This document shows positions 15,247-25,576 of a stretch of 64,000 nucleotides of DNA, one piece after another; position 1 is the stretch's first letter, and each line of letters starts with the position of its first letter. The DNA lies in contig NZ_BBXE01000013.1 in the NCBI RefSeq assembly GCF_001570565.1, forward strand, positions 762,984 to 826,983, read 5' to 3'. The notes under the pieces are model-generated. The model saw nothing but the letters and a program-made list of their open reading frames with translations, did not search any database and was not told where the DNA came from. Both the position numbers and the translations under genes were made by a program. The DNA comes from Herbidospora yilanensis (lineage in GTDB: Bacteria > Actinomycetota > Actinomycetes > Streptosporangiales > Streptosporangiaceae).

Positions 15247-16449
15247 ATGAGCCGAATCTCCGCGCGTGTCGCCGCCATCTCCGAGTCAGCCACCCTCGCC
15301 GTCGACGCCCGGGCGAAGGCCATGAAGGCCGCCGGCCGGCCCGTGATCGGTTTCGGCGCCGGGGAGCCCGACTTCCCGACGCCCGGCTACATCGTCGAGG
15401 CGGCCGTGGCGGCCTGCGCGGAGGACCGGTTCCACAAGTACACGCCGCCGGGCGGGCTGCCGGAGCTGAAGCAGGCCATCGCGGCCAAGACGCTGCGCGA
15501 CTCCGGGTTCGAGGTCGACGCGGGCCGGGTGCTGGTCACCAACGGCGGCAAGCACGCCGTCTACGCGGCCTTCGCGACCCTGCTCGACCCGGGTGACGAG
15601 GTGCTGGTCGTGGCGCCCTACTGGACCACCTACCCCGAGGCGATCAAGCTGGCCGGGGGTGTCCAGGTCGACGTGGTCACCGACGAGGGCAGCGGCTATC
15701 TGGCGTCGGTGGAGCAGCTTGAGGCGGCCCGGACCGAGCGGACCAAGGCGCTGCTGTTCGTGTCGCCGTCGAACCCGACCGGGGCCGTCTACTCCCCCGA
15801 GCAGGTCGAGGCGATCGGCCGCTGGGCGGTCGAGCACGACCTGTGGGTCGTGACCGACGAGATCTACGAGCATCTCGTGTACGGCTCCGCCACGTTCACC
15901 AGCATCGCGACCGCCGTCCCCGAGCTGGCCGACAAGGTCGTGGTGCTGAACGGCGTGGCGAAGACCTACGCGATGACCGGCTGGCGGGTCGGGTGGCTGA
16001 TCGGCCCCTCCGACGTGGTGAAGGCGGCCACCAACCTCCAGTCCCACTCGACGTCGAACGTGTCGAACGTGGCCCAGGCGGCGGCGCTGGCGGCCGTCTC
16101 CGGCGACCTGTCGGCGGTGGCCGAGATGCGGACCGCCTTCGACCGGCGGCGGCGGACGATGGTCCGGATGCTGAACGAGATCCCGGGCGTGGTCTGCCCC
16201 GAGCCGTTCGGGGCCTTCTACGTCTATCCCTCGGTCAAGGAGCTGATCGGCAAGGAGATCCGCGGACGCCGCGCGGCGTCGTCGGTCGAGCTGGCCGAGC
16301 TCGTGCTGGAGGAGGCCGAGGTCGCGGTGGTCCCGGGCGAGGCGTTCGGCACGCCGGGATACTTCCGGCTCTCCTACGCCCTGGGCGACGACGACCTCGC
16401 CGAAGGGGTCACCCGGCTGGGCAAGCTCTTCGGCGAGGCGCGCCAGTAG
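15247..16449 (+). CDS. aspC: Aspartate aminotransferase-like PLP enzyme (class I)
   Basis: 400 aa fold-type I aminotransferase, transferring amino groups between an amino acid (probably Asp) and 2-oxoglutarate. Residue landmarks: [10 protein letters not shown] (38-47), [26 protein letters not shown] with the PLP Asn, TDEIYEHL with the PLP Asp/Tyr, and the Schiff-base Lys239 in [16 protein letters not shown]-terminal Arg in YFRLSYAL would bind the alpha-carboxylate. ATG 15247 is used; a GTG two codons upstream is possible. No clear ribosome site. In actinobacteria this gene typically sits beside secE/tRNA-Trp. Substrate is inferred. Confidence 0.88.
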
Positions 16450-16679
16450 TCGAGCCCGGCCACGACGGTCTCCAGGCGCACCTCGCCCATGACGGCGACC
16501 GTGATCGCGAGGTCGGGCTCGCGGACCCCGGCGGCGGCCAGCGGAGGGATCAGCAGGGCCGCGAGACGGCTGCGCCACCGTCTGCGGCGGACCCGGCGTT
16601 CGACGCGTTCGGCCAGGTCAGGTGGGATGGCCAGGTCGGCGGTCTCGGCGGTCATGGCCGCCTTGAGGTCATCCAGCAC
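16374..16679 (-). pseudogene. Remnant of an ECF-associated membrane (anti-sigma-like) gene
   Basis: About 101 codons from GTG 16679, preceded by GAGGAGG at 8 nt. Begins LDDLKAAMTAETADLAIPPDLAERVERRVRRRRWRSRLAALLIPPLAAAG, the cytoplasmic and start-of-TM part of SigE-type partner proteins. It then jumps to a tail, LAITVAVMGEVRLETVV. The extracytoplasmic part is missing, so an internal deletion is likely. The frame overlaps the 3' end of the convergent aminotransferase by 76 nt. The start overlaps the original stop of the neighbouring sigma remnant, as in intact pairs. Confidence 0.55.
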
Positions 16680-16937
16680 TGGTCGCCTCCTCGCCCAGCA
16701 GGGTGCGCAGGCGGGCCATGGCCTTGGCCGTCTGGCCCGGCTGATGACCGTGTTGACGATGATGCGCCGGACGTAGGGTTCCGGATCGCGATCGTCGATC
16801 CGGGACCAGTTGCGGCAGGCCTTCTCCAGGGCGGCCTGCGGCACGTCTTCGGCCTCGTGGACGGACCCGCAGGTGAGGTACGCCGTCCGGAGCAGTGCGG
16901 TGCCCCGGGCGGCGACGAGTTCCGCGAATCCCGTCAT
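16669..16937 (-). pseudogene. ECF (SigE-type) sigma factor broken by internal deletion
   Basis: From ATG 16937 the frame encodes region 2 (FAELVAARGTALLRTAYLTCG...EAEDVPQAALEKACRNWSRI...PYVRRIIVNTVISRAR). It then becomes nonsense. One frame over, the sequence reads GQTAKAMARLRTLLGEEATSAG followed by TGA at 16669, which is the end of region 4 of this family. So roughly 80-90 codons between regions 2 and 4 have been lost with a frameshift. An intact relative lies at 17909-18403. Confidence 0.7.
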
Positions 16938-16973: not shown

Positions 16974-17912
16974 CTACTTCTCGACGCGGATGTGCTCGAT
17001 CACCTTGGCGATCTCGGCCAGAGCCGTCTTCTCGCCGAGCGAGGCGCTGTAGTCGGGGCTGAACAGGACCTGGACCACCTGGTCACCGGGAAGGTCACGG
17101 CTGGCGGTGAGGGTCGAGCCGGCGCCGAAGTCGAGCTTCTCGCCGCCTTCGCCGTAGCTGGAGACCCAGGTGCCGGGGGCGATCTGCTCGCCGTCGCGGC
17201 GCAGCAGGTTCTGGTCGACGCCGACGATCACCTGGATGGAGTACATGCCCTCCTCCAGGCCTGCGGTGACGTAGGGCACGGTGGCGGACTTCGGGCCGAA
17301 GCCGCCCACGTAGGAGTCGCCGCCCCACTTCACGCCCTCGGGGAGGTAGCCGACGTGGATGCCCATCCAGGTCAGGCCGTCGCCGAGGTCGCCCAGGGTC
17401 TCGATCTCCGGCTTGCCGCCCTCGTCCTCCGGAGGGGCCGTCGGGGAGACGGTCGGGGCGGGCACCCACGGGACCTTGATCTGGACGAGCGCCTTCGGGT
17501 CGGCGACCTCTCCGGCGGCGGGGCTGGTCTGGATCACCTTCTCGCCCGCGACCACTCCGGCCTGTTCGCTGCCCTCTCCCGGCGTCATGAGCATCGGGGT
17601 CAGGCCGGCCTGCTCCAGCAGCAGGTAGGCCTGCTTGGCGTTCATGCCGACCACGTCGGGCACCACGATGCCGGGCACCGCGATCGCGGGCGCCGAGGCG
17701 CCGCTCGCCGGTCCGGCGGACGGGGTGGTGTTCGTCAGCACGACGGGGACGGTGATCGCGACGGCGGCGGTCACCAGCACGGCCCCGGCCGTACGGAATC
17801 GGACGAGGGAACGGCGACGGCGGCGCCGGACGGCGCCGCCCATCGACGGCGGGGCGTAGACCTCGCCCACCTGGGCGCGCATCGCCTCTTTCAGTGCTTC
17901 CTCGACGTTCAT
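16974..17912 (-). CDS. Membrane-anchored PASTA-domain partner of an ECF sigma factor
   Basis: 312 aa. Cytoplasmic N-terminus (MNVEEALKEAMRAQVGEVYAPP, basic RRRRRRSLVR), one TM helix (about 41-60), a Pro/Ala linker, then a PASTA domain at about 83-146 (VPDVVGMNAKQAYLLLEQAG...VIQTSPAAGEVADP). A C-terminal extracytoplasmic domain of about 140 aa follows, which I do not recognise. PASTA domains bind muropeptides or beta-lactams in PknB. Its ATG overlaps the sigma factor TGA (ATGA), so the two are coupled and it is probably the sensor/anti-sigma. That role is inference. Confidence 0.75.
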   Translation of the reverse strand: MNVEEALKEAMRAQVGEVYAPPSMGGAVRRRRRRSLVRFRTAGAVLVTAAVAITVPVVLTNTTPSAGPASGASAPAIAVPGIVVPDVVGMNAKQAYLLLEQAGLTPMLMTPGEGSEQAGVVAGEKVIQTSPAAGEVADPKALVQIKVPWVPAPTVSPTAPPEDEGGKPEIETLGDLGDGLTWMGIHVGYLPEGVKWGGDSYVGGFGPKSATVPYVTAGLEEGMYSIQVIVGVDQNLLRRDGEQIAPGTWVSSYGEGGEKLDFGAGSTLTASRDLPGDQVVQVLFSPDYSASLGEKTALAEIAKVIEHIRVEK

Positions 17913-18403
17913 GCGGGCACTCCTTCGACCATCGCTTCTCGGATCCTGGCGAGCCCTCGCGCCGCCTGGCTCTTCACCGTGCCGACCGAGCAGCCGAGCA
18001 GGCTGGCGGTCTCGGCCTCCGACTGGTCCTCCCAGTAGCGCAGCACCAGGACGGCCCGCATGCGGGCCGGCAGTTTGCGCAGCTCGGCCAGCATCGCTTC
18101 GCGAAGACCGAGGTCGGGGCCGTCGACGGGGGTGTCGGGCGGCGCGGCGAAGGTGATCTCCTGGATCACGCGCCGGCGGCGCGAGCGGGTGATGGCGCTG
18201 TTGACCACCACCTTCCTGGCGTAGGCCTCCGGGTTGTCGGCCCGGATGCGCGACCAGTGGCGGTAGACCTTCTCCAGCGCGCCCTGCACGAGATCCTCGG
18301 CGTCGTGGGCGCTGGCCCCGCAGACGAGGATCGCGGTGCGGAGCAGCGCCGTGCTGCGCGCGGCCACGAACTCGTCGAAGGCCGCTTCGTCTTCATCGGT
18401 CAT
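17909..18403 (-). CDS. ECF RNA polymerase sigma factor, SigE family
   Basis: 164 aa. Region 2: FDEFVAARSTALLRTAILVCG...DAEDLVQGALEKVYRHWSRI...AYARKVVVNSAITRSRRR. Region 4: LRKLPARMRAVLVLRYWEDQSEAETASLLGC followed by GTVKSQAARGLARIREAM. The short N-terminus without extra domain matches the actinomycete SigE-like ECF group. ATG 18403 has GGGGAG upstream. It overlaps the PASTA membrane protein by 4 nt. Confidence 0.9.
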   Translation of the reverse strand: MTDEDEAAFDEFVAARSTALLRTAILVCGASAHDAEDLVQGALEKVYRHWSRIRADNPEAYARKVVVNSAITRSRRRRVIQEITFAAPPDTPVDGPDLGLREAMLAELRKLPARMRAVLVLRYWEDQSEAETASLLGCSVGTVKSQAARGLARIREAMVEGVPA

Positions 18404-18476
18404 GGGCTCCCCTTTCGCTCGTCCACAACGCGCGAAGCGGGTGAAGGGTTGAGTGCTGTTGCGGCAGGATATGGAG

Positions 18477-19490
18477 ATGCGGCGCCCACTCGACAGACTC
18501 CCCAAGGCACATCTCCACCTGCACTTCACCGGATCGATGCGCCATTCGACGCTCATCGAGCTCGCCCGCGAGCAGGGGCTCCACCTGCCCGACGCGCTGG
18601 TGCAGGACTGGCCGCCGCAACTGCACGCCACCGACGAGCGCGGCTGGTTCCGGTTCCAGCGGCTCTACGACATCGCCCGGTCGGTGCTGCGGCGGCCCTC
18701 CGACGTCTACCGGCTGGTCCGCGAGGCGGCCGAGGACGAGGCCCGTGAGGGCTCGCGGTGGCTGGAGATCCAGGTCGACCCGTCGGGTTACGCCTCGAAG
18801 TTCGGCGGGCTGACCGAGACGCTGGAGCTGGCGCTCGACGCGGCCCGGCTGGCGTCCGAGGCGACCGGGGTCGGGGTCGCGGTGATCGTGGCGGCCAACC
18901 GCACCCGCCACCCGCTCGACGCCCGCACCCTCGCCCGGCTGGCCGCGCAGTACGCCGGGAAGGGCGTGGTCGGTTTCGGGTTGTCCAACGACGAGCGGCG
19001 CGGCCGGGCGCGCGACTTCGACGCGGCGTTCCGGATCGCGAAGCGCGCCGGGCTGCTGGCGGTGCCGCACGGCGGCGAGTTGCTGGGCGCGGCCTCGGTC
19101 GCCGAGTGCGTCGACGACCTCGGGGCCGACCGGGTCGGTCACGGGGTGCGCGCCGCCGAGAGTGCCCGGCTGATGGAGCGGCTGGCCGACCGGCAGATCA
19201 CCTGCGAGGTCTGCCCGCTCTCCAACGTGGGTCTGGGGGTGGCGCGGGGTCCGGAGGACGTACCGCTGAGAAGGCTTTTCGAGGCCGGGGTGCCGATCGC
19301 GCTGGGCGCCGACGACCCGCTCCTGTTCGGCGCCCGGCTGCTGTCGCAGTATGAGCTGGCCAGGGATGTCTACGGCTTCTCCGACGCCGAGCTGGCGGAG
19401 CTGGCCCGCCAGTCGATCCGGTCGTCGACGGCCCCGGAGCCGGTCCGGAAGGAGATCATCGCCGACATCGACGCCTGGCTAGCGAACTGA
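18477..19490 (+). CDS. Adenosine deaminase-family amidohydrolase
   Basis: 337 aa Zn-dependent purine deaminase fold. Motif PKAHLHLHFTGS near the N-terminus supplies the metal His pair (14 and 16). Usual family members have PKAELH.HLEG, so the Glu is replaced by His12 and the HLEG by HFTG. Downstream are VPHGGE (His ligand and catalytic Glu), DRVGHGVRA (catalytic His), CPLSNVGLG and ALGADDP (metal Asp). Starts at 18471 and 18477 are both possible; AGGA is placed better for 18477. It may act on adenosine, adenine or a modified purine. Last 12 nt overlap the convergent gene. Confidence 0.82.
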   Translation: MRRPLDRLPKAHLHLHFTGSMRHSTLIELAREQGLHLPDALVQDWPPQLHATDERGWFRFQRLYDIARSVLRRPSDVYRLVREAAEDEAREGSRWLEIQVDPSGYASKFGGLTETLELALDAARLASEATGVGVAVIVAANRTRHPLDARTLARLAAQYAGKGVVGFGLSNDERRGRARDFDAAFRIAKRAGLLAVPHGGELLGAASVAECVDDLGADRVGHGVRAAESARLMERLADRQITCEVCPLSNVGLGVARGPEDVPLRRLFEAGVPIALGADDPLLFGARLLSQYELARDVYGFSDAELAELARQSIRSSTAPEPVRKEIIADIDAWLAN

Positions 19491-20186
19491 TCCGGCGATC
19501 CGGACCGCCTCCTGCATCGTCGGGGCGCCTTCCAGGCGGAGCCCGACGCGGCCGTGCTGCCAGATGAGGGTGGGGCCGGCCAGGCGGAGCGAGACCGGCG
19601 CCCCGCCTCCCACGGGCAGATATTCGACGCCGTGCTGCTGCGGGATCCAGACGCCCGGGCCGGCGCCGAGCCAGACCTGCTGCGGGAACGGCTCGCCGAG
19701 TTCCTTGTGCCAGACCTCGCGCAACGACCCGTCGTACTGGTCGAGGCGGATCCCGTCCCAGTACATGCTGACGACCTGACCGCCGTCGGCCACCCTTACC
19801 TGGTCGGGTTCGCCGAGCGCGGCCGGGACCACCAGCGGGAAGGCCACCGCCGCGCGCGCCTCGGCCAGGGCGGCGCCCGTCTCCGACGGGAGCGGCGAGG
19901 GGGAGCCCGACGGGAGCGGCGCGGAGCCGCCGACCTCGATCTCGACCCCGGCGAAGCGCAACACCCCGGCGACCGCCGCGCGGCCCTGCGGGGTCGCGGC
20001 GACCAGCACGACCAGAACGGCGGCCACGACCGCGACCAGCCGTTTCGTGGTGAAGCGGCGCTTGGGCGCGGGCTCGTGGAAGGCGGCCAGCACGCGACCG
20101 GCCATCGCCGTCGGCGGCGGCGGCACGTGGAGCGACTCGCCCAGAGCGCGGAGTTCGGCCTCGAAGGGGTCGTCAGAGGAGTTCAC
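19479..20186 (-). CDS. Putative anti-sigma membrane protein of the STAND-ECF operon
   Basis: 235 aa. Cytoplasmic N-terminus (DDPFEAELRALGESLHVPPPP), one TM helix (about 49-65, RLVAVVAAVLVVLVAA), then an extracytoplasmic domain (AVAFPLVVPAALGEPDQVRVAD ... VVSMYWDGIRLDQYDG ... PGVWIPQQHGVEYLPV). No ZAS zinc motif is seen. The topology and the 14-nt overlap with the ECF gene upstream suggest an anti-sigma role, which is inference. GTG start with GGAGG upstream. Confidence 0.7.
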   Translation of the reverse strand: MNSSDDPFEAELRALGESLHVPPPPTAMAGRVLAAFHEPAPKRRFTTKRLVAVVAAVLVVLVAATPQGRAAVAGVLRFAGVEIEVGGSAPLPSGSPSPLPSETGAALAEARAAVAFPLVVPAALGEPDQVRVADGGQVVSMYWDGIRLDQYDGSLREVWHKELGEPFPQQVWLGAGPGVWIPQQHGVEYLPVGGGAPVSLRLAGPTLIWQHGRVGLRLEGAPTMQEAVRIAGSVR

Positions 20187-20736
20187 GGTCCACCTCCTCC
20201 CTCAGCCGCCGCAGCCCCCGGTGGGTGCGGCTCTTCACCGACCCGATCGGGCAGTCGAGGACCTCGGCCGTCTCCGCTTCGGACAACTGCAGGAAATACC
20301 GGCAGACCACCGCTTCGCGTTCCCGATCAGGCAGCGCCCGGACCGCCGCGAGCAACCGCGCCGACCGGTCGCCCGCCACCGCCGAGTCCTGTGGATCGGC
20401 CGGGCCGTCGGCCTGCCGCACCGCCTCCAGCCGGACCGACAGATCGGCCCGGCGTCCGCGCGACCGGGTCGCGTTGTGGGTCTCGTTGGCCACGATGCGC
20501 AGCAACCAGGGCCGGAAGGCCGAATCGCGGCGGAACGACCTCAGATGACGATAGGCCTTGACGAACGCCTCCTGAACCACGTCCTCGGCCTCGTTCCCCG
20601 CGCCGAGCAGGAACGCGGTGCGGTGGGCTATCGCGGTGTACCGGGTGACGAGCGCCTCGTAGGCGGTCAGGTCACCGGCGAGCGAACGGCCGACCGCTTC
20701 GTCGTCGGTCAGAGGGGGAGGGTCATCGGCATTCAT
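20173..20736 (-). CDS. ECF RNA polymerase sigma factor
   Basis: 187 aa. Region 2: YEALVTRYTAIAHRTAFLLG...NEAEDVVQEAFVKAYRHLRSF...FRPWLLRIVANETHN. Region 4: LLAAVRALPDREREAVVCRYFLQLSEAETAEVL followed by GSVKSRTHRGLRRLREEV. A typical ECF of the SigM/SigW-like kind, different from the SigE-type factor at 17909. It is the third gene of a four-gene operon. Its ATG lies 14 nt inside the end of the upstream STAND gene, and its own 3' end overlaps the next gene by 14 nt. Confidence 0.92.
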   Translation of the reverse strand: MNADDPPPLTDDEAVGRSLAGDLTAYEALVTRYTAIAHRTAFLLGAGNEAEDVVQEAFVKAYRHLRSFRRDSAFRPWLLRIVANETHNATRSRGRRADLSVRLEAVRQADGPADPQDSAVAGDRSARLLAAVRALPDREREAVVCRYFLQLSEAETAEVLDCPIGSVKSRTHRGLRRLREEVDRELL

Positions 20737-22777
20737 CGGCGGGATGATTCCACCGCATCGCTCCGGAATTGGGAAGACCGCCCAAGGCGTAGCCGACGCC
20801 GCCGTCGAGGGACAGGCGCCGGCCTTCGGCGTAGGCGTCGAGGTAGTCGCGTTCGCCGAGCACCCGGCGGGCGCGCCGCTCGGTGCGGCCGCGTGACTCG
20901 ACGAAGCCGGGCGGGGCGAAGTGGGCCGACCCCAGCTCGGCCCACAACCGCTCCCCCACGCCCAGCAGGCGGGCCGCGCGGACGGCGTCGCCCATCGCGA
21001 CGGCGCACGCGGCGAGGCGTTCGACGGCCATCGCGCCGCCCATCACGTCGCCCAGCCGCCAGATCGTGCGCAGGGAGGTGCGGGCGTAACGGTCGGCGGT
21101 GGCGGCGTCGCCCCGGCCGAGTTCGGCGGCGGCCCTGATCTGGTCGCCCATCGAGCGCGACCACTCTTCGCCGAGCGCCTCGCAGGCGGCCCGCTGGCCC
21201 TCCAGGACGATCACCGCCTCGTCGGGGTCGCCCCGGCCGATCAGGGCCAGCGCGAGCAGCGCCATCGCCGACAGGCGGGCGACGTAGCGGCCGCCCACCC
21301 GGTCGAGGTGGTCGATGGCCTCCTCGGCGAGCAGGCGTACGGCGTCGAAGTCGCCCTGGAAGAGCGCCAGGCCGGCCGCGCCGGTGCAGGCGTGGCCGAT
21401 GGCGGCCGGGTCGTCCTGGGCGAGGGCGGCCTCGCGGGCCTGCGTGAGGCGGATGGCCATCTGGTCGCGGTCGCCCTGGGCGAAGGCGACGAAGGCGGCG
21501 GCCCACAGGGCGCGGGTGCGCTGCGGACTGTCCGCGGTGTTACGTTCCAAGGCCCGGTCGAGGTAGTGGCGGCCCTCGCGGGCGTGCCCGAGGCAGTACC
21601 AGACGAACCACAGGCGGCCCACCAGGTCGAGGCCGATCGGGCTGGCGATGCTCCGGTCGAGGGCCAGGCGCAGGTTCGGCATCTCGCCGCGTGCCCAGTC
21701 AGACCACGACGCCTGGTTGGGGCCGCACCAGTCGGCCTCGGCACGGCGGGCCAGGGAGACGTAGTGGTCGCGGTGGCGGAGCATCAGGTGCTCCTCCTCG
21801 CCGAGTTCGCGCAGCCACTCGCGGCCGTAGACGCGGACCGTCTCCAGCATGTGGAACCGGTCGCCGATCGAGCAGACGACCGACTTGTCGGCCAGTCTGG
21901 CCAGCGTGCCGGGCACGTTGGGCAGCCGGTCGTCGCCGCAGACGTACTGGGCCGCCTCGGTCTCGAACGACCCGGCGAACACCGACAACCGGGCCCAGAG
22001 CAACCGTTCGTCGGGGGTGCACAGTTCGTGGCTCCAGCCGACCGACGTCCGCAGCGCGGTGTGCCGGCCGGTGCGGCCCGGGTGGCCGGAGAGCAGCGCG
22101 AACCGGTCGTCGAGCCGGTCGGCCAGCTCTTTGGGGGTCATCGAGCGCAACCGCCGGGCGGCCAGTTCGATGGCCAGCGGCAGGCCCTCCATCTGATGGC
22201 AGAGCTGGGCGGCCTCCTCGGTGGAGGTGAAGCCGGGGACGACGGCGGCGGCGCGTTCGGCGAACAGGCGCAGGGCGTCGGTCTCGACGAGCGGGCGGAC
22301 CCGGTAGACACGTTCGGCCGGATGGCCGAGCGGCTGGCGGCCGGTGACCAGGAAGCGGACGCCGGGCGCCTTCGCCAGCACCTGGCCGACCAGGGCGCGG
22401 GCGGGCCCGACGAGGTGTTCGACGGTGTCGAGCACGATCAGCATCCGGCTGTCGGCGAGGTGCGCGGCCAGCACCTCGCCCTGGGGCCGGACCGACTGTT
22501 CCGGAAGGCCGAGCGCAGCGGAGACCGCGTGGGCGAGCAGATCGCCGTTGCGCTCGGCGGCCAATTCGGCCACCCGGACCGGCTCCAGGTGAACCCTGGC
22601 GTGTTGTGCCGCCGCACGGAATGCCAGACGCGTCTTCCCCACGCCGCCCGGACCGGCGAGCGTCACCACCGACGACTCGGTGATCAGTCGGCCGACCTCG
22701 GACAACTCCGCGTCTCGCCCGACGAAGGTACTGGTTTCCGCCGGAAGGTTCACGGCCGTCAGGGTTTCACGGCGCAA
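20723..22777 (-). CDS. STAND/NB-ARC ATPase with TPR-like repeats, no DNA-binding domain
   Basis: 684 aa. P-loop AGPGGVGKT (42-49), Walker B LIVLD (113-117), then RFLVTGRQPLG and EGLPLAIELAARRL, as in AfsR/LuxR-type signal-transduction ATPases. A winged-helix-like linker follows (WSHELCTPDERLLWARLSVF), then an alpha-helical repeat half rich in Ala, Leu and Arg. AfsR-type proteins carry an N-terminal SARP domain and MalT/LAL types a C-terminal LuxR helix-turn-helix; neither is present. TTG start directly abuts the TGA of the upstream paralogue (TGATTG). The downstream ECF gene overlaps by 14 nt. Confidence 0.82.
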   Translation of the reverse strand: MRRETLTAVNLPAETSTFVGRDAELSEVGRLITESSVVTLAGPGGVGKTRLAFRAAAQHARVHLEPVRVAELAAERNGDLLAHAVSAALGLPEQSVRPQGEVLAAHLADSRMLIVLDTVEHLVGPARALVGQVLAKAPGVRFLVTGRQPLGHPAERVYRVRPLVETDALRLFAERAAAVVPGFTSTEEAAQLCHQMEGLPLAIELAARRLRSMTPKELADRLDDRFALLSGHPGRTGRHTALRTSVGWSHELCTPDERLLWARLSVFAGSFETEAAQYVCGDDRLPNVPGTLARLADKSVVCSIGDRFHMLETVRVYGREWLRELGEEEHLMLRHRDHYVSLARRAEADWCGPNQASWSDWARGEMPNLRLALDRSIASPIGLDLVGRLWFVWYCLGHAREGRHYLDRALERNTADSPQRTRALWAAAFVAFAQGDRDQMAIRLTQAREAALAQDDPAAIGHACTGAAGLALFQGDFDAVRLLAEEAIDHLDRVGGRYVARLSAMALLALALIGRGDPDEAVIVLEGQRAACEALGEEWSRSMGDQIRAAAELGRGDAATADRYARTSLRTIWRLGDVMGGAMAVERLAACAVAMGDAVRAARLLGVGERLWAELGSAHFAPPGFVESRGRTERRARRVLGERDYLDAYAEGRRLSLDGGVGYALGGLPNSGAMRWNHPADECR

Positions 22778-24745
22778 TCACGTTTGAGGGGCTGCGGTGG
22801 ATAATTCTCTACCTCGGGCGGAAATTTCTAATGCGCGGTCGAGTCCCATCCTCCGGCCGCGCGCCAGCGCCGTCTGGTAGGCCTCCTCGCCCAGTTCGAG
22901 CACCGCTCTCCTGGCGCATTCGTCGTGGGCGGCGGTGAAGTGGCGGGAGCCGTACAGAGGAGAGCCGACCGACTCCCAGACGACCGCCGCCGCGCCCTGC
23001 AGCAGCGCGCCGCCGGCGGCGTCGCCGGTGCCGACGAGCACCAGCGCGAGCAGCTCGACGTCGAGCACCGTGCCGATCAGGTCGTTGAAGATCCTGCTGT
23101 ACGCCAGCGACTCGCGCGCCAGCCGCTCGGCCCCGGCGTGGTCGCCCGCCCCCCACGCGAGATAGGCCTCGAGGTAACAGACGTAGCCGAGCACCCACCT
23201 CTCGCCGTGGTCTTCGCACAACCGCCGGACGTCGCGGCAGATCACCCGGGCCGGTTCGAGCCGGCCGGTGAACGCCTGGGCCATGGCCAGCTCGATCTTG
23301 CCCATCAGCACGTGGGTGTCGAGCAGCCCCATGTCCTCGTATTCGGCCAGGGCGTGGAGCAGCAGCGGGATCGCCCGGTCGAGCTCGTCGGCCAGCATCG
23401 CCAGCGCGCCCAGCCGCTGCACCGCGCGGGCCCGCGACCGGTCGTCGCCGCGCTCGCGGCACTCGGCCAGCAGCGCCGTGGCCCTGGCGGCGTCGCCCAT
23501 CATGATCGCGACATAACCCGCCACCCACAGGGCCTTGGCCCGCTCGGGCGTGGGCGAGAGATCGGAGTCGAGGACCTGCTCCAGCCAGTGGCGGCCCTCG
23601 CCGAGGTGGCCGCAGCAGACCCAGTAGAACCACAGGGTGGCGGCCAGGTCGAGGCCGTCGCGCTCCTCACCGGGAGTGGAGACGCAGAACTCCAGGGCGG
23701 CCCGGAAGTTGCCGTGTTCGGCGTGGGTGCGGTCGTAGATCTTCTGCTGGCCGGGGCCGAACCACTGCGACTCGCCGCGCCGGGCCAGCCGCAGGTAGTG
23801 GTTCTTGTGCTTGCGCCGCAGCCGGTCGGTCTCCTCGGGGCCGAGCCGGTCGAGCCACTCCTCGCCGTAGTCGCGCACGGTGTCGAGCAGCCGGTACTGC
23901 CCTCCCGCGCGGACCACGATGGACCGGTCGACCAGACCACTGATCAACCCGAGCAGCGCGTGGGCGGGGAGGGCGCGGTCGGCGCACACCTCCTCGGCGG
24001 CGGCCAGCCCGAACGACCCGGCGAACACCGACAGGCGCGCCCACAACAGGCGTTCGGCCGGGGAGCACAACTCGTGGCTCAGCCCGATCGCGGCCCGCAG
24101 CCCGTCGAGCAGCCGGAACCGGTCGTCGAGCCGGCGCACCAGTTCCTCGACCGGGAACTCGGCGAGCCGCACGGCGGCCAGCTCGATCGCCAGCGGGATC
24201 CCGTCGAGCCGGTCGCAGAGCCCGGCGTCGTCGGCGACCACCCGCCCGGCCCGGTCGGACAGCAGTTCCAGCGCCTCCGTACGGTTCATCGGCGCCACCG
24301 CGAACAGATGTTCTCCGGCCACGTCGAGCGGCTGCCTGCTGGTGACCAGCACCCGCAACCCAGGAGCGCCGCGCAGCAGCAGCTCGGTCAGCTTGGCGCA
24401 CGCGTCGACGAGCCGGTCGGCGCCGTCGAGCACCAGCAGCACCCGCCGGTCGGCCAGATGGGCGGTCAGCACCTCGTCGGCCGGTCGGGCGGTGCGGTCG
24501 GTCAGCCGCATCGCGTCGGCGACGGCGTGACCGAGCAGGTCGGGCTCGCCCACTTTGGCCAGGTCGGCGACGAACACGCCGTCGGGGAAACCGGCCTGCG
24601 CCACGGCCGCGACCCGGCCCGCCAGCCGGGACTTGCCGACGCCGCCCACACCGGTGAGCGTCACCAGGCGGGAGACCTCGAGCAGGCGCGCGATCTCGGT
24701 GATCTCCGGCTCCCGGCCGATGAAACTGGTCACCTCGGCACGCAT
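22778..24745 (-). CDS. STAND/NB-ARC ATPase with TPR-like repeats (paralogue), operon head
   Basis: 655 aa, clearly homologous to the next gene: SFIGREPEITEIARLL, P-loop GVGGVGKS (32-39), Walker B LLVLD (103-107), LRVLVTSRQPL, DGIPLAIELAAVRLAEF, SHELCSPAERLLWARLSVF. The C-terminal half is helical repeats ending AYQTALARGRRMGLDRALE. No DNA-binding domain is found at either end. ATG 24745 has no ribosome site but a TACCAT box 6 nt upstream, suggesting a leaderless message. A long upstream in-frame extension (to about 25639) is antisense to the methyltransferase and is rejected. Confidence 0.82.
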   Translation of the reverse strand: MRAEVTSFIGREPEITEIARLLEVSRLVTLTGVGGVGKSRLAGRVAAVAQAGFPDGVFVADLAKVGEPDLLGHAVADAMRLTDRTARPADEVLTAHLADRRVLLVLDGADRLVDACAKLTELLLRGAPGLRVLVTSRQPLDVAGEHLFAVAPMNRTEALELLSDRAGRVVADDAGLCDRLDGIPLAIELAAVRLAEFPVEELVRRLDDRFRLLDGLRAAIGLSHELCSPAERLLWARLSVFAGSFGLAAAEEVCADRALPAHALLGLISGLVDRSIVVRAGGQYRLLDTVRDYGEEWLDRLGPEETDRLRRKHKNHYLRLARRGESQWFGPGQQKIYDRTHAEHGNFRAALEFCVSTPGEERDGLDLAATLWFYWVCCGHLGEGRHWLEQVLDSDLSPTPERAKALWVAGYVAIMMGDAARATALLAECRERGDDRSRARAVQRLGALAMLADELDRAIPLLLHALAEYEDMGLLDTHVLMGKIELAMAQAFTGRLEPARVICRDVRRLCEDHGERWVLGYVCYLEAYLAWGAGDHAGAERLARESLAYSRIFNDLIGTVLDVELLALVLVGTGDAAGGALLQGAAAVVWESVGSPLYGSRHFTAAHDECARRAVLELGEEAYQTALARGRRMGLDRALEISARGRELSTAAPQT

Positions 24746-24751
24746 TAACGA

Positions 24752-24816
24752 ATGGTAACTCTCTAGTGGGAGATGCCGCAGAAGAGAATCGGCGTCATTC
24801 TCCTGGGCACTAGACT
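24752..24816. promoter_or_regulatory. Divergent promoter region, STAND operon / methyltransferase
   Basis: In the 102-nt gap, the minus strand has TACCAT (24757-24752) ending 6 nt before the STAND ATG. The plus strand has TAGACT (24811-24816) about 30 nt before the methyltransferase ATG. Neither has a good -35, so expression may need an activator or alternative sigma factor. Confidence 0.4.
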
Positions 24817-24847
24817 CGCTCGGACCGCCACCGACGAATGAGGAGCC

Positions 24848-25576
24848 ATGTCTGGGTACGACCGTGTAGTCCAGCCCGCGGCCGGAGACGAAGCCCTGGA
24901 GAACCATCTGGGCGGCGACGAGGCGCGCAACTACCGGCAATACGAGTTCGACATGGTTGCCCCGCACGTCGGCCGGTCGATGCTGGAGATCGGCTCCGGT
25001 CTCGGCCACTTCGCCGAGCAGTTCCTGCCCCGCCTCGACCGTCTGGTGACGAGCGACTTCGACCCCTACTGCGTCGAGCAACTGGAGAAGCGGTTCGCCG
25101 ACAACCCCGACGTGGGCGTGCTGCAGTTCGGGCTGCCGACCGACATCCCGCTTGAGGACAAGGTCGACACGGTCGTGCTGATGAACGTGCTGGAGCACAT
25201 CGAGGAGGACGTCGAGGCGCTGCGTTCGCTGGCCCGCGTCACCCAGCCCGGCGGCAAGATCATCATCTGGGTGCCCGGCTACATGCAGCTCTACGGCGAC
25301 TTCGACAAGAAGGTCGGCCACGTCACCCGCTACACCCCGAAGACGCTCGGCGCGACGGTCCGCGAGGCCGGGCTGGGCATCCACACGCTGAAGCCGATCA
25401 ACTTCCTGGGCGGCATCGCCTGGTGGGCGGCCGTGCGCCGGGGCGGCGTCGGCTACCCCGACCCTCGGCTGGTCAAGATCTACGACCGGACGGTCGTGCC
25501 GGCCACGCGGTTCATCGAGCGGTTCGTCACCCCGCCGTTCGGCCAGACCGTCTTCTGCGTCGCGACGGTGAAATAA
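24848..25576 (+). CDS. Class I SAM-dependent methyltransferase
   Basis: 242 aa. SAM-binding motif I SMLEIGSGLGHFAEQF (about 44-59), the acidic end of strand 2 TSDFDPYCVEQL, motif III TVVLMNVLEHIEEDVEALRSL, and RVTQPGGKIIIWVPG. This is the UbiE/BioC-like small-molecule type. The region after about 155 (MQLYGDFDKKVGHVTRYTPKTL) is typical of proteins that methylate sugars or lipids, but the substrate is not known. ATG preceded closely by GAGGAG. Confidence 0.88.
   Translation: MSGYDRVVQPAAGDEALENHLGGDEARNYRQYEFDMVAPHVGRSMLEIGSGLGHFAEQFLPRLDRLVTSDFDPYCVEQLEKRFADNPDVGVLQFGLPTDIPLEDKVDTVVLMNVLEHIEEDVEALRSLARVTQPGGKIIIWVPGYMQLYGDFDKKVGHVTRYTPKTLGATVREAGLGIHTLKPINFLGGIAWWAAVRRGGVGYPDPRLVKIYDRTVVPATRFIERFVTPPFGQTVFCVATVK

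Follow-up and report, generated by a model that had tools for sequence, protein, structure and literature searches.

The 64,000-nucleotide (nt) stretch of Herbidospora yilanensis DNA analysed here, referred to below as the window (contig NZ_BBXE01000013.1, positions 762,984 to 826,983), contains four consecutive minus-strand genes that encode two STAND NTPases (STAND1 and STAND2), an extracytoplasmic function (ECF) sigma factor and a membrane protein, and the question that this locus raises is whether the four make up one signalling system. A first-pass annotation had described this layout, together with 14-nt overlaps between the STAND2 stop and the ECF start and between the ECF and membrane-protein genes, and had proposed that the sigma factor could be the output of the STAND proteins. 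The layout and both overlaps are present in the sequence. The comparisons reported here lead us to favour, with moderate confidence, another answer: that two separate regulatory modules share the locus, rather than that the four genes form one new signalling system.

We used an even draw of 150 genomes of the family, in which ECF orthologues were accepted at E<=1e-40 and orthologues of the methyltransferase gene (MT) that borders the locus on its left at E<=1e-80. These were found in 47 and 88 genomes, respectively, and the loci compared were the 47 ECF loci (our own included) and 41 MT-positive loci without ECF; individual loci are cited by number (L123 and so on). Full STAND genes lay between MT and ECF in 22 of the 47, remnants only in 2, and none in 23. 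Among the other 41, 13 had full STANDs between MT and the adenosine deaminase family gene (ADA) that borders the locus on its right, 4 had neither STAND nor ECF, and 24, in which the stretch contained MT and lacked both ADA and ECF, were left unclassed and out of the STAND/ECF counts (one of these, L154, shows STAND matches). L123, which has two STANDs and an ECF gene and whose flanking MT lies on the opposite strand, was counted as STAND with ECF, and L124, with no MT in the stretch, as ECF without STAND. The 23 loci in which the sigma factor and its partner do without STANDs, and the 13 in which STANDs do without a full ECF gene, fail to support the view that the STANDs have the sigma factor as their output. 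Decay has left traces on both sides: L141, scored as having neither, retains a 35-residue ECF relic, L132, one of the 13, has short relics of the ECF and partner genes behind two full STANDs and two STAND fragments, and STAND fragments or remnants occur in sister genera at L090, L097, L107, L132, and L143 and its group.

When presence and absence were placed on a species tree of MT and ADA (56 loci), at least 10 changes were needed for ECF and 5 for STAND; over 4 independent pairs, ECF followed STAND in 0.3 and opposed it in 1.7 on average. No positive association was thus found on this tree, with a power, at 4 pairs, that is low and would let a weak link pass. On the strength of the separate occurrence and of this result, a single regulatory cascade was rejected as the default reading. 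Beyond the family, no STAND match was found at 3 Amycolatopsis loci with 9-kb flanks or at 7 further loci of 2.2–3.5 kb, and all 10 keep the membrane partner. As a separate observation, GGAAACTACCTTTTGTCGC upstream of ECF in L028, L104, L115 and L118 resembles the first STAND1 codons of L051, L107 and L132 and is possibly the relic of a deleted STAND gene; of 8 such loci 4 show the pattern, and what aligns locally between the spacers is mainly the MT promoter side.

The first-pass annotation had named conservation of the STAND-STAND-ECF order outside this genome as a point on which its proposal would stand or fall, and the order is indeed kept in two genera. It was found in 6 of 6 genomes of Herbidospora, including the overlap of STAND2 with ECF, and in 5 of 5 of an Acrocarpospora-type genus, in which STAND2 stops before the ECF start and there is no overlap; in other genera the distance from STAND2 to ECF is about 20–500 nt. 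In the 7.85-Mb genome of the window the locus runs from the divergent MT gene through the four minus-strand genes to the convergent ADA gene, the 3' end of which overlaps the end of the membrane-protein gene by 12 nt. Its features are the following.

24848..25576, plus strand: MT, a class I S-adenosylmethionine-dependent methyltransferase, divergent, the conserved left border (Pfam Methyltransf_11, E 3.9e-14).
24746..24847, minus strand: MT/STAND1 intergenic region, read from the sequence.
22778..24745, minus strand: STAND1, an NB-ARC/AAA NTPase with TPR-like repeats, 655 amino acids, without a helix-turn-helix (HTH) (Pfam, NCBIfam).
20723..22753, minus strand: STAND2, NB-ARC with TPR-like repeats, 676 amino acids from a probable GTG start, without HTH.
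20746..20776, minus strand: bipartite promoter-like element of the ECF gene, CTTCC and then TGCGGTGGAATC, inside the STAND2 3' end.
20173..20736, minus strand: ECF sigma factor, 187 amino acids, ATG start (Pfam Sigma70_r2, E 1.9e-14; Sigma70_r4_2, E 7.7e-15).
19479..20186, minus strand: membrane partner, 235 amino acids, presumed anti-sigma factor (orthologue alignment, coupling to ECF).
18453..19490, plus strand: ADA, convergent, the right border (NCBIfam NF006849, E 2.9e-177).

The constant unit of the locus is formed by the sigma factor and its membrane partner. In the sigma factor, regions 2 and 4 and no others were found, both above the Pfam cut-off, as in the ECF class; its best PDB matches are ECF sigma factors, and it is 91–97% identical to the ECFs of four Herbidospora species. 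The partner has a cytoplasmic N-terminus, one hydrophobic stretch near residues 49–64 (judged by eye) and an outer domain, and an alignment of 25 orthologues placed invariant residues in the outer part. In 90 of 90 loci, with STANDs or without them, the reading frame of the membrane protein has a start codon ahead of the ECF stop, with an overlap of 1–20 nt (14 nt in 69); these loci come from two overlapping draws, less those in which no membrane protein was matched or ECF lay on the opposite strand. The partner also neighbours ECF in 7 of 7 loci outside the family. The earlier suggestion that the membrane protein is the sigma factor's partner is well founded by these counts, and from its anatomy and constant coupling we presume that it is an anti-sigma factor. 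The arrangement resembles that of known ECF/membrane anti-sigma pairs, in which the ECF gene overlaps a membrane-protein gene, but the window's partner differs from them in having no Pfam or NCBIfam match and no convincing PDB match (nothing better than E 0.25 in the PDB search).

The STAND1/STAND2 border proved less firm. It had been described as translationally coupled through TGATTG; the letters are present at the STAND1 stop, but the TTG start, and hence the coupling, was not confirmed. One of the six Herbidospora genomes (L082) has GCG in place of the TTG at 22777, and in three Acrocarpospora loci (L010, L011 and L048) STAND2 aligns from a GTG that is equal to the window's 22753 and is the first start codon in frame; for these reasons GTG 22753 is the better start, and the coupling was rejected as a conserved feature. 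The two genes share a reading frame, with a single TGA between them in the window (22775–22780, minus strand), and by coordinates the same is true of 10 of the 11 genomes of the two genera (the exception is L084); this is probably coincidence. Six bases ahead of the STAND1 ATG, at 24752–24757, there is a -10-like TACCAT, the position of which is occupied by TACGATTCG in L006, L008, L009, L010, L011 and L048 also. It is possibly a leaderless promoter; a simple promoter scan did not recover it, and found no sigma-70 site in the stretch. Terminator-like sites numbered 2 in the stretch against 1.2 expected, with none at a gene junction.

STAND1 and STAND2 are homologous, as had been noted, with 41% identity over 656 columns; both are NTPases of NB-ARC/AAA type, STAND2 above the Pfam cut-off for NB-ARC and STAND1 slightly below those of the NB-ARC/AAA-type models, and both give weak matches to TPR models. 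For wider comparison we used a set (A1) of 46 of the 72 STAND frames found (the window's two are among the 72), which leaves out 8 near-identical copies from Herbidospora and 18 fragments. AAA_16 was matched by 46 of these 46 full-length proteins and NB-ARC by 35, at E<=0.001, as expected of the STAND family, with its P-loop NTPase core, ARC-type motif and following repeats, and residues G32, G35, G37, K38, D107 and P184 are invariant in the alignment of the locus STANDs. SARP/AfsR regulators carry an N-terminal HTH and an activation domain. In the window STANDs only a few residues precede the conserved F(V/I)GR of the NTPase core, and neither protein gives such a Pfam match. Their best solved relative is AfsR (PDB 8k60/8jke; E 1.9e-24, with a STAND profile), whose NTPase and TPR parts align with them but whose N-terminal SARP DNA-binding part they lack.

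Both STANDs, the ECF gene and the membrane-protein gene are under purifying selection in Herbidospora (dN/dS of 0.17, 0.23, 0.17 and 0.24, respectively, in 6 genomes), and so are the STANDs in the Acrocarpospora-type genus (STAND1 0.41, STAND2 0.31). These values bear on the explanation that the pair are decaying, functionless leftovers of a LuxR-type regulator. STAND fragments and remnants in sister genera, and the loss of the HTH discussed below, would fit it, but the range of 0.17–0.41 for intact, full-length copies in two genera and the conserved P-loop residues make it highly improbable.

A different explanation has the pair as an NLR-like defence module parked at a variable locus, in agreement with PDB matches to NLR-like proteins, which share the STAND fold, and with the varying copy number and decay of STANDs at this locus. 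Anti-phage STAND systems of the Avs-like kind have an effector domain and match defence models. Here the best PADLOC match, at E 0.0029, was to generic models, with no strong match, and on this value a defence system was rejected; no effector domain was found in the Pfam scan, and several STANDs of the locus carry a LuxR HTH. We give the defence explanation little credence. Phage origin was rejected on a best PHROGs match of E 0.00054, to a family without assigned function. Conflict-type proteins beside an ECF sigma factor are, in the excerpted literature, a previously described arrangement and a likeness to the present one; the difference is that the Pfam scan of eight genes contained no caspase-like or TRADD-N part, and that the STANDs here are AfsR/LAL-like. 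A search of open-licence titles and abstract openings for STAND or NB-ARC with ECF sigma factors found no layout like this.

Neither STAND has an HTH by Pfam, and the alignment leaves scant room for one at either end; a search by sequence for a hidden HTH likewise found none, which supports the first-pass description of both as without a DNA-binding domain. LAL regulators are the LuxR-type large ATP-binding family, and the window proteins resemble them in NTPase and repeats and differ in lacking the C-terminal GerE HTH. That domain is present in 8 of the 46 full-length STANDs of this locus: an individual Pfam check of 10 proteins found it in both STANDs of L119 and in one each of L125, L143 and L160, and a motif found it additionally in L149, L167 and L171. 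The motif misses some HTHs, as it did the second STAND of L119. An HTH is likewise present at the end of some STAND fragments from the L143 group. In a quick tree with SH-aLRT support only, STAND1 falls in an 11-row clade (support 100) with the HTH-bearing L119 and L125, which are the nearest relatives of STAND1 of the two genera; no row of the 25-row STAND2 clade (one row a paralogue) has the HTH motif. The C-termini of the window copies fall close to the point at which the HTH begins in their orthologues. Because L119 and L125 in its own clade carry the domain, STAND1 has most likely lost an HTH output domain. The loss was not simply a replacement by the sigma factor, since HTH-less STANDs occur both beside ECF and away from it, and the HTH-bearing pair of L119 adjoins an ECF gene.

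We next consider the DNA ahead of the ECF gene. CTTCCC together with TGCGGTGGAATC lies in the STAND2 3' end directly ahead of the ECF ATG, and the same is found upstream of ECF in STAND-less Nonomuraea; the 12-mer TGCGGTGGAATC itself occupies 20746–20757 (minus strand), 9 nt before the ATG. Fifteen STAND-less Nonomuraea loci served to build a 12-mer matrix (their sites were picked by pattern and so match by construction), which gave 21.3 bits at 20746–20757, and 11.2 bits at the second best of the approximately 128,000 sites in the window. Of 18 other named loci with STAND matches, 17 have the element as their best site, beside the ECF start (the exception is L032). Its bipartite form occurs once in the window's own genome, at ECF, and its reversed control not at all; in 13 other genomes there were 12 matches, 9 of them at ECF, with 3 genomes without any and none for the control. 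Codon usage points the same way as these counts: in the last 20 codons of STAND2 from 11 genomes, all 22 asparagines are encoded by AAT, whereas the rest of the two STANDs uses it for 6 of 129, from which it follows that DNA there is held for something besides protein. The bias indicates that the STAND2 tail LPNS..RWN is shaped by overlapping DNA. Very likely, then, the ECF gene has its own promoter, nested in the STAND2 3' end; the STAND genes would stand upstream of this promoter, with the STAND2 frame running into it, and the four genes probably form two transcription units with possible read-through; separate transcripts are among the findings that the first-pass annotation had named as refuting its proposal. 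No upstream motif common to all genera was found.

The element also bears on the explanation in which the sigma factor, or the stress response to which it belongs, controls the STAND genes, so that these would be part of a linked regulon and not an upstream sensor. Adjacency and common orientation are in its favour. The bipartite element, if it is the sigma factor's own target, occurs in the window's genome only at ECF and not before STAND1, and the region upstream of STAND1 resembles a -10 near the ATG; we consider a linked regulon improbable.

The overlap of STAND2 with ECF invites the thought of an old coupled operon, and the start codons of the ECF orthologues are informative here. At the codon aligned to the Nonomuraea ATG, 76 distinct loci (from 92 in two overlapping draws) have ATG in 42, ACG in 24, CTG in 8, GCG in 1 and ATC in 1. 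A Shine-Dalgarno match of at least 5 bases precedes 21 of the 24 ACG codons and 5 of the 42 ATG codons (p 1e-9, not corrected for kinship), at a spacing of 5–7 nt in 20 of the ACG loci and 11 nt in L047. No in-frame ATG, GTG or TTG occurs within 60 nt upstream in 14 of the 24; the remaining 10 have one 33–48 nt upstream, ahead of the Shine-Dalgarno sequence. Examples of ACG are L021, L022, L027, L032, L046, L101, L115, L047, L049 and L050. Outside the family ACG was found in 3 of 3 Amycolatopsis loci and, behind GGAGGAGG, in L204; the other six loci gave no clear picture. On these alignments, translation of the sigma factor probably begins at ACG in many genera. In Herbidospora the start is an ATG that lies 6–8 codons further upstream, 9 nt past the element, and this shift would create the 14-nt overlap with STAND2; if so, the overlap is derived and not the sign of an ancient coupled operon.

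PMC5472188 describes the GTC start of Streptomyces sigR as repressed by IF3, which leaves the anti-sigma factor in excess. In sigR-rsrA an ECF gene precedes that of its partner and combines a ribosome-binding site that is conserved with a start codon that is not canonical; on sequence, 24 of the 76 orthologue loci fit this. They differ in that the ECF is another one and the codon ACG, not GTC, known here from the sequence only; the window's own gene, with its ATG, does not fit. No ACG-started sigma factor was found among the best-matching open-licence papers of our literature search.

Several observations weigh against treating the modules as separate. The membrane partner gives no match to a known anti-sigma family. 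In the two genera the four genes are not separated in any of the 11 genomes; with 64 sigma-70 region-2 matches and 12 STAND matches in the 7.85 Mb of the window's genome, adjacency in a single genome could be chance, and its conservation in two genera makes it more. HTHs are rarer among STANDs of ECF-bearing loci (2 of 29 proteins, against 6 of 17; nominal p 0.04), five of the six from loci without a full ECF gene belonging to one clade. The 12-mer by itself is weak evidence for a promoter, as the exact sequence occurs once in the genome and so does its reversed control, and with one mismatch it occurs at 49 places against 27 for the control. Furthermore, none of the 13 named loci that lack STANDs and are not from Nonomuraea had the element as its best site. 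Among the loci of the family draw it was found in 19 of the 22 with full STANDs, in both of those with remnants and in 4 of the 22 without STANDs, and is absent upstream of ECF in 3 of the first and 18 of the last group (L124, unclassed in this count, is without it). It thus tracks STAND presence (nominal p 1e-5, not corrected for kinship), which speaks against complete independence of the modules; a functional link would predict the same.

Some of these observations would suit a lineage-specific wiring, which is the first-pass proposal narrowed to this line: in Herbidospora and Acrocarpospora, a STAND pair that lacks the HTH would be expressed along with the sigma factor and act through contact with it or with the membrane partner. 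The absence of both HTHs, the selection on both STANDs, the constancy of the four genes and, in Herbidospora, of the STAND2-ECF overlap (6 of 6), the nominal associations just given and the lack of a terminator-like site at a gene junction are all in line with such wiring. It is opposed by the loci that keep the ECF pair without STANDs or STANDs without the ECF pair, by the ECF gene's own promoter element, and by the finding that 11 of the 17 STANDs from loci without a full ECF gene in set A1 are HTH-less also, and we judge it unlikely. That the pair actually exchanged DNA binding for contact with the co-expressed sigma factor or membrane partner is, in our estimation, rather unlikely; if true, an envelope-stress sigma factor would receive an input from the cytoplasm through the ATP switch of the STAND pair.

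The reading that we favour, of two modules at one locus, can be set out as follows. In the first module, the short cytoplasmic N-terminus of the partner most likely holds the sigma factor at the membrane until the outer domain senses an envelope signal and the sigma factor is freed, as anatomy and coupling suggest; this module would have its own promoter, now inside the STAND2 3' end. The second would consist of tandem AfsR/LAL-type STAND NTPases, of which at least STAND1 appears to descend from a LuxR-HTH regulator. Because the HTH is lost and purifying selection persists, the Herbidospora–Acrocarpospora STANDs presumably act through protein contacts, with an ADP/ATP switch in the NB-ARC part and a TPR face that may bind a ligand or partner. 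STAND transcripts may read into ECF and so give co-expression, although neither module would need the other across the family.

Some neighbouring features may be recorded. L007 has approximately 380 nt extra between MT and STAND1 relative to L006, L008 and L009, and L110 approximately 1.4 kb extra between MT and ECF relative to sister loci. Further STAND genes of the same family lie away from ECF, between ADA (or a PASTA gene) and an aminotransferase gene, in L018, L021, L022, L024, L038, L041, L045 and L051. Inside the window, a segment of about 4.4 kb contains three ECF-like genes. An open reading frame at 16374–16937 (minus strand), with a region-2 match, resembles a shortened third ECF gene of SigE type that runs into a different tail; the SigE-like paralogue at that place is longer in L007–L009 than in L006, and the window copy may be decayed. 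At 16974–18631 (minus strand) there is another SigE-type ECF gene, beside a gene for a PASTA-domain protein that it overlaps by 4 nt.

In the aggregate, the locus shows that regulators whose genes are neighbours, and even overlap, can be separate modules, and it points to a predicted promoter nested in a coding end. With the ACG start predicted in many genera, this ECF would join sigR among sigma factors whose amount is kept low by a weak start codon, and annotation restricted to ATG, GTG and TTG can misplace ECF genes that start in this way. For the family, the locus offers related STAND regulators, some with an HTH and some lacking one, that are still under selection in two genera, and it raises the question of what such STANDs do without DNA binding.

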